The notes under the pieces were generated by a model. The model saw nothing but the letters and a program-made list of their open reading frames with translations, had not been told where the DNA came from and did not search any database. A stretch of 35,914 bases of DNA from Ardenticatenia bacterium (GTDB lineage: Bacteria; Chloroflexota; Anaerolineae; 4572-78; NAK82): contig QEXY01000182.1 in NCBI GenBank assembly GCA_003130875.1, positions 1 through 35,914 of the forward strand, given 5' to 3'. Below are positions 29,778 to 35,321 of this stretch, piece by piece; position 1 is the first letter of the stretch; the number at the start of each line of letters is the position of its first letter. A program made the translations under genes and the position numbers.

Positions 29778-30968
29778 TTATGGCGGCGAGCGCAGGATGC
29801 CTACTCGCGCAGGGGGCTCGCAGGGCATCCGCATGCCCGGGCGCAGATTGCGCACGTGTGCCATCACCACGATCGCCTGGGTGCCCAATTGGGGTTGGTA
29901 GACACCCAACCAGGGCGCTGTGCGATAGGCACGTGCGGCAGCGGTCCACAGCCACAGCGGCAGCTTGCCACTCAGGATGACCCCTTTGTTGGCAGGAACA
30001 CGCGGCAGGCACACCTGCTCGACCTCACTGTAGTCCAGATAACCCCCCGGAAGCGACAGCTCCACCCATACATATGACCCTTGCAGCGTCACATCCGCGC
30101 GCACAGGCGAGGTGGTGATGTCTTCTTTTAATTCAGGAGTGGGCGGTGCAATCCAGCCCAGGCGTACATCGAACTGGTACAGCGGGGCGGGATAGACGTG
30201 TACCGCCAAAGCGGCGTACAGCCAATTGGGGCCACGATCATAGATGGCCAAGGGCAGATGGGGCGGTGCATAGACGAGCACCTTGCCCAGCTGTTCGGGC
30301 TGCCACTGCTCCCACGGATGGCCCATGGCCGATGCCAGCATGCGCCCCAGGCGCTCCAGTTCCACCACCAAATCGGCCGGCGCGTTGGCGATGTGGAGGC
30401 GGCGCAACTCTTCCTGATCGTAGGCGAACAAGCTGGCCACCTGGTCCACCAGCGCGGTGAAGACCACCCCGCTCGCTGTGCTACCGCGTTCCAGCCCGCT
30501 GATCTGTCCGCGCAGCACCGGGCTGTGGGCCTGCACGACGTCCTCACCGGAGCGCACCGAATGGAGATCGGCGATCACCGGCAGGTTATGGCGGCGTGCC
30601 AGCCGAGTCCAATGGCCATGGCTGGCGCGGTCGCGTGTCAGCAGGATGATGTGCGTACAGTGATCCAGGACCACTTCCTGCCAATCGGTGGGCCGACCGC
30701 CTATGTCAACGATCAACGGTAGATGTCGCCGGGCGATATCGCGGCAGATGTGCTGGATCCACTCCGGTGTGACGCTGTTCTTGATACGGATGCGTCGCAC
30801 CAGTGCCTGATCCGCCTCGTTAGCCCAATCGCCCTCGCCGTCGGGAAAGGCGCGCAGGACATAATGGGCGATCTGATGCGCCCGTAGCGCCTTGCTCAGC
30901 GAATACGCTAGCACAGATTTGCCGCTATGCGGTGGGCCGCCGATCGCGACCGCCGGAAAGAGCTCCAT
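29778..30968 (-). CDS. csx3: P-loop NTPase fused to a Csx3 (Crn3-type) CRISPR ring-nuclease domain
   Basis: A 396-aa fusion. Residues 1-190 are a P-loop NTPase/kinase-like domain (GGPPHSGKS at 10-18, Walker B-like LPLIVDIGG at 83-91). Residues about 291-383 are a Csx3 domain: KGVILSGKLPLWLW, AYRTAPWLGVYQPQLG and a closing AH (His371). Csx3 binds and cuts cyclic tetra-adenylate. In the active Csx3 I recall, the catalytic residues lie in Y-H...D-P-R; here those positions read Arg349, Gln358 and Gln360, so activity is doubtful. Residues 236-272 (RGPNWLYAALAVHVY, FDVRLG) look like a second Csx3-type half that keeps D-x-R. AGGAGGG lies 11 bases before the ATG. The gene is divergent from the CARF-LuxR gene and two genes away from cas10. 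Confidence 0.75.
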   Translation of the reverse strand: MELFPAVAIGGPPHSGKSVLAYSLSKALRAHQIAHYVLRAFPDGEGDWANEADQALVRRIRIKNSVTPEWIQHICRDIARRHLPLIVDIGGRPTDWQEVVLDHCTHIILLTRDRASHGHWTRLARRHNLPVIADLHSVRSGEDVVQAHSPVLRGQISGLERGSTASGVVFTALVDQVASLFAYDQEELRRLHIANAPADLVVELERLGRMLASAMGHPWEQWQPEQLGKVLVYAPPHLPLAIYDRGPNWLYAALAVHVYPAPLYQFDVRLGWIAPPTPELKEDITTSPVRADVTLQGSYVWVELSLPGGYLDYSEVEQVCLPRVPANKGVILSGKLPLWLWTAAARAYRTAPWLGVYQPQLGTQAIVVMAHVRNLRPGMRMPCEPPARVGILRSPP

Positions 30969-31062
30969 TAGCCGTGTATCCCTCCTCTCTCCTCTTCCTG
31001 CTCCATCTCGCTCAGGGTTTCACCATCAGCCCCATAGAAGGATCGTTCAATCTCCAGAGAAT

Positions 31063-31075
31063 CGCCAATCTGGCG
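31063..31075. promoter_or_regulatory. Palindrome in the csx3 / CARF-LuxR divergent gap (candidate operator)
   Basis: CGCCA-ATC-TGGCG is a perfect 5-bp dyad with a 3-base centre, 95 bases from the csx3 start and about 30 bases upstream of the plus-strand -35 box. A GTTTTT run follows it on the plus strand, so a weak terminator is the alternative. Confidence 0.3.
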
Positions 31076-31105
31076 GTTTTTGTCGAGCTGGTACCTGTTT
31101 CCCCC

Positions 31106-31134
31106 TTGTCCAGCGAGCGAACTCATGATATTCT
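31106..31134 (+). promoter_or_regulatory. Putative promoter of the CARF-LuxR gene with a flanking direct repeat
   Basis: TTGTCC (31106-31111) and TATTCT (31129-31134) are 17 bases apart. The 10-mer CCAGCGAGCG occurs at 31110-31119, over the start of the spacer, and again at 31166-31175, downstream of the expected transcription start. Two copies 56 bases apart around a promoter would suit looping or autoregulation by the encoded HTH protein; this is inference. Confidence 0.4.
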
Positions 31135-31227
31135 TAGGTAGGACACCCGCGTGGCATAGCCTCTGCCAGCGAGCGCAGGTATCCCCGGCATATCTTTTGG
31201 CCAGCTGCGAGAAAATGTGTCGGAGCG

Positions 31228-32175
31228 ATGACGACCGAAAGCACTCTTCTGGTGACGATGGGTGGCCAGCCCCAGGTGGTGACCTTTGCCCTGGACTGGC
31301 TGCTGACGCGTGGTGAGATCATCCGCGAAGTGGTGGTCTTGCACCTGTCCCCTACGCCTGATCTCCCCACCGAATACCGGCGCACTCAACATGCCCTGGA
31401 ACAGCTGCACCGCGAATTCAGCGGCGACCGCTATCAAGGCCGTCCGTGCCGTTTGCGGCTGATGCCGATTCGCTATGGCAACATGCGCCTGGCCGATATC
31501 CGCGACGAGACGGATGCCGATGTGGTCTGGTGTGCTATCTATCAGCTGTTGACCACTTTGAAAGCACAAGGCCGTCCGCTGCATCTGTGCATTGCCGGTG
31601 GACGGCGCATTATGGGCCTGCTGACGCTCAGCGCGGCGATGCTGCTGTGTGGTCATCAGGATCACGTGTGGCATATGTACACGCCCATCGGTTTCCTGGA
31701 GCAGGCACGCGACGGTGCCATTATGCACGCGCAGCCATCGGACGGGGTTCGCCTGATCGAGGTGCCCTTCGTGCCCTGGGGCACCTATTTCCCTGCCTTG
31801 CGTGAGCTGGCGCCCTCCTCGGCCCAGGTCATCGCCACCCAGACAGCGCAACTGGAAGCGGCCGAGTATGCACGTTGCCGTAGTGTGTTCGAGCAGCTGA
31901 CCCCGCGACAGCGCGAGGTGCTGCGCCTGCTGGCGATGGGGTACACACCCCAGGAGGTCGCCGAACGCCTGCATATCACCCTGGCAACGGTCAACACCCA
32001 CAAGAGCGTCATCCTGGATCAGTGTCGCGTTGCCTGGAACCTGCCAGAGGATGCCTATTTGTCCTATCATTTCCTGCGCGACCATTTCGCCCGGTTCTTC
32101 GAACGCGAACGGAGAAATTCCCCTCCGCATATCTATAACACAAGCGAGGCGCGCGGGCATCATCATTTTGTATGA
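31228..32175 (+). CDS. CARF/ring-nuclease-like (NE0113/SSO2081-type) domain fused to a LuxR-type HTH
   Basis: A 315-aa protein. Residues 1-185 resemble the NE0113/SSO2081 (Crn1) family of CRISPR-associated CARF proteins: LLVTMGGQPQVVTFAL at the start, LADIRDETDAD (88-98) and the cOA-pocket motif CIAGGRRIMG (121-130). Residues 223-268 are a LuxR/GerE helix-turn-helix (LTPRQREVLRLLAMGYTPQE, then TLATVNTHKS). The layout predicts a transcription factor controlled by cyclic oligoadenylate. In Crn1 the catalytic Ser before Pro and the Lys of GGRK matter; here they are Gln14 and Arg127, so cleavage may be lost and binding kept. A close GGAG precedes the ATG. It is upstream of cas10 in the same direction. 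Confidence 0.7.
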   Translation: MTTESTLLVTMGGQPQVVTFALDWLLTRGEIIREVVVLHLSPTPDLPTEYRRTQHALEQLHREFSGDRYQGRPCRLRLMPIRYGNMRLADIRDETDADVVWCAIYQLLTTLKAQGRPLHLCIAGGRRIMGLLTLSAAMLLCGHQDHVWHMYTPIGFLEQARDGAIMHAQPSDGVRLIEVPFVPWGTYFPALRELAPSSAQVIATQTAQLEAAEYARCRSVFEQLTPRQREVLRLLAMGYTPQEVAERLHITLATVNTHKSVILDQCRVAWNLPEDAYLSYHFLRDHFARFFERERRNSPPHIYNTSEARGHHHFV

Positions 32176-32273: not shown

Positions 32274-32573
32274 ATGGTACGTTGGAGGCGAGAACGCGAG
32301 GACGACCTCGAGCGCGATTGGTGGGATAGCGACGACGAGGAAGAGGAGGCGTACTGGCCTGACCCCTATGGATGGTCGCCTTATGGCTGGCCGACGATTA
32401 TGGGGATGCCCTATCCGATCGCGATCGACATTATGCGCGGCAAGTGGCCGCCGGGCCATGAGGACAGCAGCTTCTGGGATGACAGGGGTGCCTTGGATCC
32501 TGGAGGAGACGACCTGTTCTGGGATCCGTTCAGCGGCGGAGGTGGTTTCTTCGACGGCGGGATGGACCTGTGA
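32274..32573 (+). CDS. Small, highly acidic, Trp-rich protein of unknown function
   Basis: A 99-aa product I do not recognise. By count it has 25 Asp/Glu against 8 Lys/Arg and 9 Trp, with an acidic block (WDSDDEEEEAYW, 17-28), a Trp/Tyr/Pro stretch and a Gly/Phe-rich C-terminus. No signal peptide or membrane segment is seen, and it is probably largely disordered. The start is well supported: GAGGAG lies five bases before the ATG. It sits between the CARF-LuxR gene and cas10, all in one direction, so it may belong to the CRISPR locus. A nucleic-acid mimic or scaffold would fit the composition, but nothing proves it. Confidence 0.6.
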   Translation: MVRWRREREDDLERDWWDSDDEEEEAYWPDPYGWSPYGWPTIMGMPYPIAIDIMRGKWPPGHEDSSFWDDRGALDPGGDDLFWDPFSGGGGFFDGGMDL

Positions 32574-32579
32574 CCGAAA

Positions 32580-32597
32580 GCCCACTTCCGGGTGGGC
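32580..32597 (+). promoter_or_regulatory. Hairpin between the small acidic gene and cas10
   Basis: GCCCAC-TTCCGG-GTGGGC is a perfect 6-bp stem with a 6-base loop, seven bases after the small gene's stop and 24 bases before the cas10 start. Without a T-tract it may be an RNA processing or attenuation element rather than a terminator. Confidence 0.35.
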
Positions 32598-32621
32598 ATC
32601 CCTATGTTTCAGGAGGTGAGA

Positions 32622-35321
32622 ATGGCAGAAATAGCGGAAGCAACACTCCAAGCAGCACTGGCCGGGCTATTGCACGACATCGGCAAGTTTGCGCAGCGCA
32701 GAGAAACGACATTCAGGAAACACGCCGAGGTGGGGGGCGAGTTTGTCAAGCACTATGTGCCCCGTCAATGGCACGGCTTTCTATACCCGGTGATGGGTCA
32801 TCACGACAAGCCGCTGATGGGTGACTTAAACAAAGTGGTAGCCCTCGCGGACCGACTGTCCGCTGGTGAGCGCGCCGAGGAAAAGGAAGAGCAGCCGCGC
32901 CAGCTCCTTTCCGTCTTTTGTCGGCTGCAGACCGAGGTGCAGGATGACGAGGGAAAGACCAAAATCCAGCGCTGCTCCGGCGCTGCCTGCTCCGGCGCTG
33001 CCTATTGGCCGCTCCGAGAGCTCGCGTTGCGCAGAGATGTGATCTTTCCTGGAGAAGATTGGTCCGAGGCAGAGGTCCAAAGTGCCTACCAGAAGCTCTG
33101 GAAGGGATTCTCGGGCCATGCGGAAAAGTTGCGAGATACCCATACCTCGGATGGGCAGTTGGATGTCTATCTCGAAAGTTTGCTGCTGTTGATGCAACGG
33201 TACACCTGGTGCATCCCCTCGGCGTATTATCGTTCGCAACCCGACGTCAGCCTCTATGACCACAGCCGTATGACCGCAGCTCTGGCTGCGCTGCTCTATA
33301 AGGCGATAGATGCACCTGTTGTCGACCAGCTGCTCCAAGCGCTCGACACGTGGTACGAGGAGCGTCGTCGGGCAGAGCAAGCAAAGCGCGATGCTGAGGC
33401 CGTGCCCCCACCACAGGCTTTGAATGAGACCCAAGTAGCGCTGTTAGTGGGCGGTGACATCTCGGGGGTTCAGGATTTCATCTACACCATCACTTCACTG
33501 GGAGCTGCCAGTGCACTGCGCGGACGCTCGTTCTACCTGCAGCTGCTGACCGAGGTGCTGGCGCGTTATGTGTTGCACCAGCTAGGACTGCCGATCTGTA
33601 ACCTGATCTATCAGGGCGGTGGCGGGTTCTATTTGCTCGCGCGTGCCGACGACCGCGAGAAGTTGCGCAACATCCAACGCCAGATCAGTGAACGCCTGTT
33701 GCAGCACCATCGTGGTGATCTTTACGTGGCATTGTCGGCAGTGTCGTTGGCTGCTGTGGACTTCTATGGCGGCCGTATCTCCGAGAAATGGGAGGAACTG
33801 ACCCGGACACTGCGCCAGGTCAAAGTTCGTCGTTTCGCAGAGATGGAACAAGGGCTGACAGAGCTGTTCCTGCCTCAGGAAGATGGCGGGGATGAGGAAA
33901 AGCAATGCGCCGTGTGCGGACGGGAACACCTTGGCACCAGAGAAATAAAGAAACCAGATGAGGAGAGCGGTGTGCGCAAGTGCCCGCCCTGCCTCTCGTA
34001 CGAAGAGCTGGGCAAGGATCTGCGCAGCGCGCGTTACCTGTGGTTGCGTGCCTACAACGGAGCATCCAGTGAATCGTCGTCCGAAGGGCTGCCATCTGGC
34101 AACTGGCAAGATGTGTTGGCTGCCTTCGGCTTCGAGGCAGGCGTGAGCGAGAAAGTGCCGCGTCCGAGTGACCAACCCGGAGTGGTGCTGGCTCTGGACG
34201 ACGAAGCGACGCAGCAGCTGGCACCCGACCGTAACACGGCAGTGGGCCGGCGTTTCCTGGTCAACGTGACCCCACGGGTCACCCTGTCGGACCTTGAAAG
34301 ATATCGCAACCAATTGCAGGAGGATCTCAAAGGCGTAGAGGCCGGTGACGTCAAACCCTTCTCCTTGCTGGAGGCGCAATCGCGCGGCATCCACCGATTA
34401 GGTGTGCTGCGCATGGATCTGGATGACGGAGGCAGACTCTTCAGCGAGGGTTTTACCGAATATGATAAGGAAAGCGGCAAAATGTTGCGCCGTTTCGCCA
34501 CCCTCTCCCGCGTCGCGACGCTCAGCTTTGCCATCAGCCTCTTCTTCGAGGGTTGGGTGGAGTTCCTCGCCCAGGAGATGAACAAAGAGACCCGGCAAGA
34601 CCCCCAGCGCGGCGATACGCTCTACTCGATCTACTCCGGCGGTGATGACCTCTTCTTCGTGGGGGCATGGGATCGCGTGATCGAGCTGGCGCGACGGGTG
34701 CGTGCCGACCTGACACCTTTTGCTGCTAATCATGAGGGCATCCATGCCAGCGCAGGGGTGGTGCTGGTGGGCGGCAAGTACCCGCTCTATCAGGCTGCTC
34801 GCGACGCCGGCGAGGCAGAGGATAAAGCCAAGCGCTATAAAGGGAAGGCAAATAGATTGAATGCGAAGAAGGATGCCGTTCACTTTCTGGGGCAGACGGT
34901 AAGCTGGTCACGTTTCGGTCTGGCCCGGCCGCTTGTGGAGGAAATGGAAACAGTGAGCGGCCTGGCGCAGCGATTGGAGCGTCTCACCCGGCCACGAGCG
35001 GAAGGGGGGGCGGGCGTGCCGGCTGCCTTGTTGCGCACACTGATGCGCGCCCAAGAGCATCACGACGCGGCGATGCGAGAACGGCGCAAGCGCGGTGACG
35101 ACTGCAACCGTCAGGGTGAGGAGCAGGTTTTATGGGGCCCCTGGATGTGGCGCACGTACTACATGCTTAGGCGCATGGCCAAGCGTTACGAGACCCAGGG
35201 CGGGCCGGAGATCAAGGAACTGGCCGATCATCTCAAGGAGGACAACTTCCGTGCCATCGAATGGATGGGCCTGGCAGCGCGTTGGGTGGAACTGCTGTCC
35301 CGCGATGCGACAGTGAGATAA
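32622..35321 (+). CDS. cas10: Type III-A CRISPR Cas10/Csm1 with intact HD and GGDD motifs
   Basis: An 899-aa large subunit of a type III effector. The HD nuclease domain is complete (His18-Asp19 in LLHDIGKF, His34, His60-His61, Asp77). Palm 1 starts GGDISGVQDFIYTI (277 on), a zinc module has Cys429/432 and Cys454/457, and palm 2 carries GGDD (673-676), needed to make cyclic oligoadenylate from ATP. TWCIPSAYY and SLYDHSRMTAA are Csm1-type landmarks. ATG 32622 was chosen over GTG 32592 because AGGAGG lies five bases upstream. No csm2-csm5 follows within the window. An in-frame 15-bp duplication is at 32973-33002. Confidence 0.95.
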   Translation: MAEIAEATLQAALAGLLHDIGKFAQRRETTFRKHAEVGGEFVKHYVPRQWHGFLYPVMGHHDKPLMGDLNKVVALADRLSAGERAEEKEEQPRQLLSVFCRLQTEVQDDEGKTKIQRCSGAACSGAAYWPLRELALRRDVIFPGEDWSEAEVQSAYQKLWKGFSGHAEKLRDTHTSDGQLDVYLESLLLLMQRYTWCIPSAYYRSQPDVSLYDHSRMTAALAALLYKAIDAPVVDQLLQALDTWYEERRRAEQAKRDAEAVPPPQALNETQVALLVGGDISGVQDFIYTITSLGAASALRGRSFYLQLLTEVLARYVLHQLGLPICNLIYQGGGGFYLLARADDREKLRNIQRQISERLLQHHRGDLYVALSAVSLAAVDFYGGRISEKWEELTRTLRQVKVRRFAEMEQGLTELFLPQEDGGDEEKQCAVCGREHLGTREIKKPDEESGVRKCPPCLSYEELGKDLRSARYLWLRAYNGASSESSSEGLPSGNWQDVLAAFGFEAGVSEKVPRPSDQPGVVLALDDEATQQLAPDRNTAVGRRFLVNVTPRVTLSDLERYRNQLQEDLKGVEAGDVKPFSLLEAQSRGIHRLGVLRMDLDDGGRLFSEGFTEYDKESGKMLRRFATLSRVATLSFAISLFFEGWVEFLAQEMNKETRQDPQRGDTLYSIYSGGDDLFFVGAWDRVIELARRVRADLTPFAANHEGIHASAGVVLVGGKYPLYQAARDAGEAEDKAKRYKGKANRLNAKKDAVHFLGQTVSWSRFGLARPLVEEMETVSGLAQRLERLTRPRAEGGAGVPAALLRTLMRAQEHHDAAMRERRKRGDDCNRQGEEQVLWGPWMWRTYYMLRRMAKRYETQGGPEIKELADHLKEDNFRAIEWMGLAARWVELLSRDATVR
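32973..33002 (+). repeat. 15-bp perfect tandem duplication inside cas10
   Basis: TGCTCCGGCGCTGCC occurs twice in direct succession, duplicating residues CSGAA (118-122 and 123-127) in frame, between the HD domain and palm 1. It is probably a recent slippage event in a loop. Confidence 0.9.

Follow-up and report, generated by a model that had tools for sequence, protein, structure and literature searches.

An internal, diverged Csx3 unit in a P-loop/Csx3 fusion protein of Chloroflexota type III CRISPR loci

The window analyzed here is the whole 35,914-nucleotide stretch of contig QEXY01000182.1. It contains, on its minus strand, a gene for a 396-residue protein (P0001) that combines a P-loop NTPase domain with two regions related to Csx3. 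Its neighbors on the plus strand encode a CARF-HTH protein (P0002) and the Cas10 of a type III-A CRISPR system. The features are as follows.

29778..30968, minus strand: ORF of the P-loop/Csx3-like/Csx3 protein P0001, 396 aa
30420..30968, minus strand: N-terminal P-loop NTPase domain, residues 1 to 183 (invariant columns, fold match of the model)
30117..30413, minus strand: internal Csx3-like unit, residues ~186 to 284 (hhalign, isolated model)
30222..30242, minus strand: internal ligand loop, Y243-[DG]-R-G-P-N-W249 (column counts in 113 homologues)
30153..30173, minus strand: internal F266-D-x-R-L-G-W272, equivalent of AfCsx3 Asp69/Arg71 (column counts)
29820..30104, minus strand: C-terminal Csx3 unit (PF09620), residues 289 to 383, degenerate (PF09620, model compared with AfCsx3)
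29952..29969, minus strand: C-terminal ligand loop, G334-K-L-P-L-W339 (column counts in 113 homologues)
29883..29900, minus strand: C-terminal YQPQLG, whose AfCsx3 counterpart is YDPRLG (column counts)
31228..32175, plus strand: P0002, divergent neighbor, CARF3-type CARF with LuxR-like HTH, 315 aa (PF09623, 1.8e-36; GerE, 8.1e-11; PDLC01855 CARF3, 1.7e-120)
32592..35321, plus strand: Cas10/Csm1, type III-A, with HD and GGDD motifs (TIGR02578, E 4.4e-186)

A gene like that for P0002 adjoins the fusion gene in all 74 loci with enough flanking sequence to be tested (72 head-to-head and 2 co-directional); the remaining 6 of the 80 loci are cut at a contig edge. The pairing spans types III-A, III-B, and III-D and has the appearance of a near-obligate two-gene module, with positions 30969 to 31227 as the shared divergent promoter region of the two genes. 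Between the CARF-HTH gene and cas10 lies an Asp/Trp/Gly-rich 99-residue ORF (32274 to 32573, plus strand) that has no family matches and is also conserved in L086 and L087, which are the nearest relatives. On the other side of cas10 is an SLFN/AlbA_2 protein cut by the contig end (35343 to 35912, plus strand; PF04326, E 8.3e-11; PADLOC PDC-S50, E 1e-8), and similar ORFs are found near cas10 in L101, L134, and L159.

The fusion family itself is already known. P0001 matches the PADLOC model PDLC01059 (C3a67 "AAA-Csx3") over its full length, with residues 1 to 381 on positions 1 to 377 of 382 (E 2.6e-133) and the same domain order, P-loop first and Csx3 last, and fusions of Crn3 with a functionally uncharacterized AAA-ATPase have been mentioned (PMC12409355). 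However, the family name counts one Csx3 and leaves out the internal unit that retains Asp and Arg. Our literature search, whose coverage is incomplete, found no description of a second Csx3 unit in Chloroflexota AAA fusions. The association of AAA-Csx3 with type III CRISPR-Cas is borne out by the cas10/csm1 gene in the window, by a near relative (L087) that has cas10 and csm2 to csm5, and by other members in a III-D locus (Chloroflexus islandicus) and a III-B locus (Ktedonobacter). A class-wide scan detected Csx3 in 77 of 396 genomes, and the matches collected are nearly all full-length relatives of P0001; no phage relatives of P0001 were found.

The P-loop domain is the best-conserved part of the protein, with the highest conservation at its motif residues: GGPPHSGKS (K17 is the Walker lysine of P0001), PDGEGDW, R61, K63, and D88-x-G-G. 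The best fold matches of model residues 3 to 185 are SIMIBI-type NTPases, MinD (1ion; Z 13.5, rmsd 3.5, 168 residues aligned) and further ParF, HypB, and CTP synthase, while Pfam AAA matches are below cut-off. Since the closest folds are of the SIMIBI type, "AAA" may be a loose name. A homologous P-loop domain (27 to 39% identity) is joined to Csx3 in the cyanobacterial Csx3'/Csx3-AAA proteins (PDLC01045; Csx3', PMC7371418; Slr7080, PMC9676260), but in these the order is reversed, with Csx3 first and usually a single unit, and in the first five loci examined the gene is divergent from a CRISPR-associated TIGR03985 gene. A Csx3-Csx3-P-loop arrangement occurs in Pseudanabaena galeata (P0010).

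The full-length protein is modeled with confidence by AF2 (pLDDT 92.1, pTM 0.88). Its C-terminal unit is a clear Csx3 by sequence (PF09620, E 2.8e-20, 72.4 bits against a curated cut-off of 21) and by fold, with model residues 289 to 389 superposing on AfCsx3 (6yud_F) at Z 15.1 and rmsd 1.6 over 97 aligned residues. The NCBI equivalog "CRISPR-associated ring nuclease Crn3/Csx3" (TIGR02579) rests on this unit (58.3 bits; cut-off, 55.4), and at E≤0.001 it matches 58 of 60 members scanned. The motifs of the C-terminal unit are KLPLWLWTAAARAY (residues 335 to 348) and YQPQLG (residues 357 to 362). As the original prediction had pointed out for positions 30150 to 30270, which are residues ~234 to 273, the order of this PF09620 block is repeated upstream, by RGPNWLYAALAVHVY (residues 245 to 259) and FDVRLG (residues 266 to 271); its numbering of His257 is also correct.

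Residues ~186 to 284 of P0001 form a second Csx3 unit, which has diverged. The isolated 60-residue segment from P0001 matches TIGR02579 in register (E 0.014, model positions 32 to 69) and PF09620 weakly, also in register (E 0.11). P0001 alone is therefore weak evidence, and it is the profiles and Pfam matches of its relatives that settle the homology. Profiles of the internal and C-terminal units, built from the 113 homologues, align with each other with their motifs superposed (hhalign probability 95.3, E 2.4e-8), at a score of 44.0, compared with a best score of 17.0 in 200 column-shuffle controls. The internal profile also aligns with a separate set of cyanobacterial, phage-like, and A. fulgidus Csx3 sequences (probability 95.4, E 1.9e-8), while P-loop controls in the hhalign comparison reach a probability of 0.2. 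In relatives, PF09620 recognizes the internal unit independently (2.0e-7 in G421, 2.2e-6 in G658, and 8e-6 in G518), and in several genomes of the class and phylum scans it matches each of the two units separately. Isolated internal segments match PF09620 at E≤0.1 in 47 of 58 cases (best, 2.2e-5).

Because a VIA search with the whole model was filled by the P-loop domain and the C-terminal unit, the internal unit was modeled (pLDDT 91.9) and searched alone. In Foldseek, the six best of 350,542 PDB chains are all AfCsx3 (E 0.027, probability 0.96). The fold match is modest in both searches (for VIA, Z 4.4 with 63 residues aligned), which is what a shortened and diverged unit should give. The secondary structure, beta-alpha-alpha-beta-alpha-beta-beta, corresponds to most of one Csx3 unit. 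The isolated segment matches Csx3 by sequence, by profile, and by predicted fold; neither a missing Csx3 match nor an unrelated fold, which would have spoken against it, was encountered. The proposed Csx3 homology stands, although the term "half-domain" does not, since the models indicate a nearly full unit. One could argue that the segment resembles Csx3 by chance, or by convergence on a short G-P-W motif, given that P0001 on its own matches PF09620 at just E 0.11. Considering that none of the 200 shuffles is comparable with the profile match, that PF09620 finds the relatives' internal units independently, down to 2e-7, and that the predicted fold retrieves Csx3 ahead of every other chain, we regard this as extremely improbable.

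In the A. fulgidus Crn3/Csx3 (AF_1864; 6yud, 3wzi), Asp69 and Arg71 lie on one active face and His60, with His57 and His80, on the opposite one, and the faces meet when dimers sandwich cyclic tetra-adenylate (cA4) (Athukoralage et al., PMC7371418). The catalytic residues include D69 and R71; D69 and H60 are both essential, with D69A or H60A each abolishing activity; and cA4 is contacted by G45, R46, I49, and R71 (PMC7371418). We counted the equivalent residues in 113 non-redundant Chloroflexota homologues. In the internal unit, the Asp69 equivalent, D267, is Asp in 101/113 and the Arg71 equivalent, R269, is Arg in 97/113, within an FDxRLGW block in which Gly is found in 112/113 and W272 in 113/113. 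The internal loop is similarly conserved (Y243, 112/113; R245, 101/113; Pro, 104/113; W249, 111/113), and W249 is aligned to AfCsx3 W50 and Cat1 W215. D267 and R269 are jointly lost more often than expected (93/8/4/8 table, kinship ignored), mostly in some Chloroflexales; the Asp is absent in ~12 members, several of them Chloroflexales, often together with the Arg. In contrast, the C-terminal unit has lost both residues: the Asp69 position is Gln in 68, Glu in 17, and Asp in 4 of 113 (Q358 in P0001), and the Arg71 position is Gln in 65 and Arg in 24 of 113 (Q360 in P0001). That D-x-R-L-G is kept internally and not in the C-terminal unit was thus read correctly from the single sequence. The C-terminal loop is retained (G334 and P337, 113/113 each; W339, 111/113; Lys or Arg, 97/113), so that a G-x-x-P-x-W loop is common to the two units.

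The histidine face is missing from both. At the His57 and His60 columns, respectively, the frequency of His is 2/113 and 8/113 in the internal unit (V256 and Y259 in P0001) and 4/113 and 3/113 in the C-terminal unit (R346 and R349 in P0001). Counted without an alignment, a two-His motif following the Trp is present in 11/113 internal and 4/113 C-terminal units. The His80 position of the C-terminal unit is His in 6/113, and P0001 keeps one such residue (H371, H80-like). The C-terminal cap region has Arg or Lys at 346 or 349 in 94/113. His257, which had been put forward as an active-site residue, is present in only 52/113 and lies at Trp+8, compared with Trp+7 for His57 and Trp+10 for His60 in Csx3 (PMC7371418); we reject a catalytic role for a residue that is unconserved and in the wrong register. 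What survives of the tandem arrangement envisaged in the original prediction is a pair of unlike Csx3 units, one with D-x-R and the other lacking it, which is fixed in a family extending over the phylum; the role of His257 does not survive. Compared with Crn3/Csx3, then, the fusion shares the fold (strongly in the C-terminal unit and more weakly in the internal one), the ligand loop in both units, and Asp69/Arg71 in the internal unit, but it has two units in a single chain plus a P-loop domain, both units lack His57/His60, and the unit that gives the family its name lacks Asp69/Arg71.

The internal-unit profile matches the cA4 sensor of the TIR-CARF protein Cat1 (PDB 9mud; E 2.5e-4) ahead of AfCsx3 (1.3e-3). 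The likeness includes an ALYG-x-GPNWLYA loop, and the alignment places W249 on W215 and D267 on N234; the Asn234/Ser235 positions are D/V in the fusion. In Cat1, CARF dimers stack on each other with cA4 enclosed between them; the protein's function is abolished by W215A, and ring-nuclease activity was not seen for it (PMC12162218). Its cap residues K225, N226, and R227 (PMC12162218) are at the position where Csx3 has histidines and the C-terminal unit of the fusion has Arg/Lys. The proteins differ in that Cat1 is a homodimer of one unit, has Asn234 in place of Asp267, and carries a TIR domain, which is absent from P0001, where the N terminus is the P-loop NTPase domain. Two TIR proteins have a C-terminal Pfam Csx3 match (L074:2428-3210, plus strand, E 5.1e-4; L201:2131-2991, minus strand, E 3.1e-4). 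At the level of sequence comparison, these TIR fusions and the Cat1 profile match suggest that the "CARF" sensor of Cat1 is related to Csx3.

Other Csx3 relatives were seen in passing. Short interior Csx3 matches in Chloroflexota were considered as stand-alone Csx3 proteins and rejected: G509 is a split fusion, G410 a C-terminal fragment, and G155 and G469 are TIR fusions. In G509 (L200:1189-2454, plus strand), a stop between the P-loop and Csx3 units yields two ORFs, which represent a pseudogene or else a split gene. P0012 (L198:3932-4216, plus strand) is a canonical Csx3 that retains every catalytic residue. It is encoded on an 18-kb linear "plasmid" of Pyramidobacter sp. YE332 (NZ_CP133039.1), together with integrase, LexA-like, and phage-type replication genes, and is possibly a phage-borne Crn3 acting as an anti-CRISPR. 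Adjacent Csx3 pairs occur on the cyanobacterial plasmids Allocoleopsis pMIC7113.03 (L082:1751-3058, plus strand) and Nostoc pNsp_a (L081:1788-3073, plus strand). In the Allocoleopsis pair, the stand-alone Csx3 is canonical and the P-loop-fused one lacks the His, Asp, and Arg residues (GSAPIW...YNVPLG), and in the Nostoc pair the fused Csx3 lacks part of the His face. A viral-contig scan found no relatives of one canonical Csx3, P0006.

P0001 more probably senses the infection signal than destroys it, as its label would imply. The loss of the His57/His60 face from both units favors a site that binds cyclic oligoadenylate over the active site of a ring nuclease, and a two-fold cA4 site would need a ligand loop in both units, which both keep as G-x-x-P-x-W. 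The retention of both loops and of one Asp/Arg pair, together with the absence of the histidine face, is most simply read as a pseudo-dimer that still binds cA4 but is no Crn3-type nuclease, and the match to Cat1, which holds cA4 without cleaving it, is an independent hint of binding without cleavage. The reading that we favor, with some confidence, is a single-chain Csx3 pseudo-dimer that would bind cA4 and control the P-loop NTPase, and not a classical Crn3. In this scheme, the internal and C-terminal units would pair within one chain, and their "D69 face" would bind cA4 made by the neighboring Cas10, with a full half-site supplied by the internal unit and a second loop by the C-terminal unit. 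Lacking a histidine face, such binding would not lead to fast, Mn-dependent, Crn3-like cleavage; pseudo-dimers may stack head-to-tail around the cA4, in the manner of Csx3 and Cat1, and bound cA4 would switch the N-terminal NTPase. We infer the geometry, the ligand binding, the stacking, and the coupling to the NTPase from conserved residues and predicted folds. The ~12 members without the internal Asp are a counterpoint, since in these the D/R pair is evidently not required. The modest fold match of the isolated internal unit and the H80-like H371 of P0001 also weigh against this reading.

Cleavage that is slow or of another kind is conceivable with the retained D/R pair. The protein might still be a ring nuclease, with the internal D-x-R half-site cleaving cA4 slowly, without metal, or assisted by the P-loop domain, and with the histidine face replaced by C-terminal Arg/Lys or by the NTPase. 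The conservation of D267/R269 and their tendency to vanish jointly would fit such an enzyme, as would the catalytic role of D69/R71 in Crn3 (PMC7371418), the Arg or Lys at 346 or 349 in 94/113, and the finding that, among loci that encode a cA4-activated effector, 39% have a ring nuclease (PMC12409355). Nevertheless, AfCsx3 tolerates the loss of neither H60 nor D69 (PMC7371418), while the H57/H60 equivalents are gone from both units in nearly all members and D267 is missing in ~12 as well, and we consider continued ring-nuclease activity unlikely. Retained binding loops, a lost catalytic face, and a CARF-HTH gene paired in every testable locus are also what would be expected of a sponge or buffer that sequesters cA4, and thereby tunes the paired CARF-HTH regulator along with other effectors, while the NTPase drives release; there is a precedent among Csx15 proteins, some of which act as sponges without being enzymes (PMC13148439). 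The extreme conservation of the P-loop motifs, which suggests an enzymatic output over passive binding, makes this decidedly unlikely.

A partnership in which the fusion works only with a canonical Csx3 from another gene that supplies the histidine face is conceivable from some cyanobacteria, Allocoleopsis (P0006/P0007) and Nostoc ATCC 53789 (P0004/P0005), in which a Csx3-P-loop fusion is accompanied by a stand-alone Csx3 of the canonical kind. However, stand-alone Csx3 was not found in the Chloroflexota genomes scanned, where a fusion without any other Csx3 in the genome is the usual case, and the probability of such a dependence is very low. We propose tentatively, and with less than even confidence, that the fusion represents a type III CRISPR effector of a new class, in which an asymmetric single-chain Csx3 pseudo-dimer would act as a cA4 receptor and not as a ring nuclease, stack head-to-tail on cA4, and switch on a SIMIBI-like NTPase, under control of the paired CARF-HTH regulator.

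The signal-contacting residues are retained in the internal unit, the very one that databases overlook. Because the C-terminal unit, on which the annotation rests, lacks the catalytic residues, surveys of ring nucleases may be including a family that spans the phylum and probably does not belong there. If the proposed receptor role is true, the Csx3 fold would be a general receptor of cyclic oligoadenylates, used by Cat1 too.
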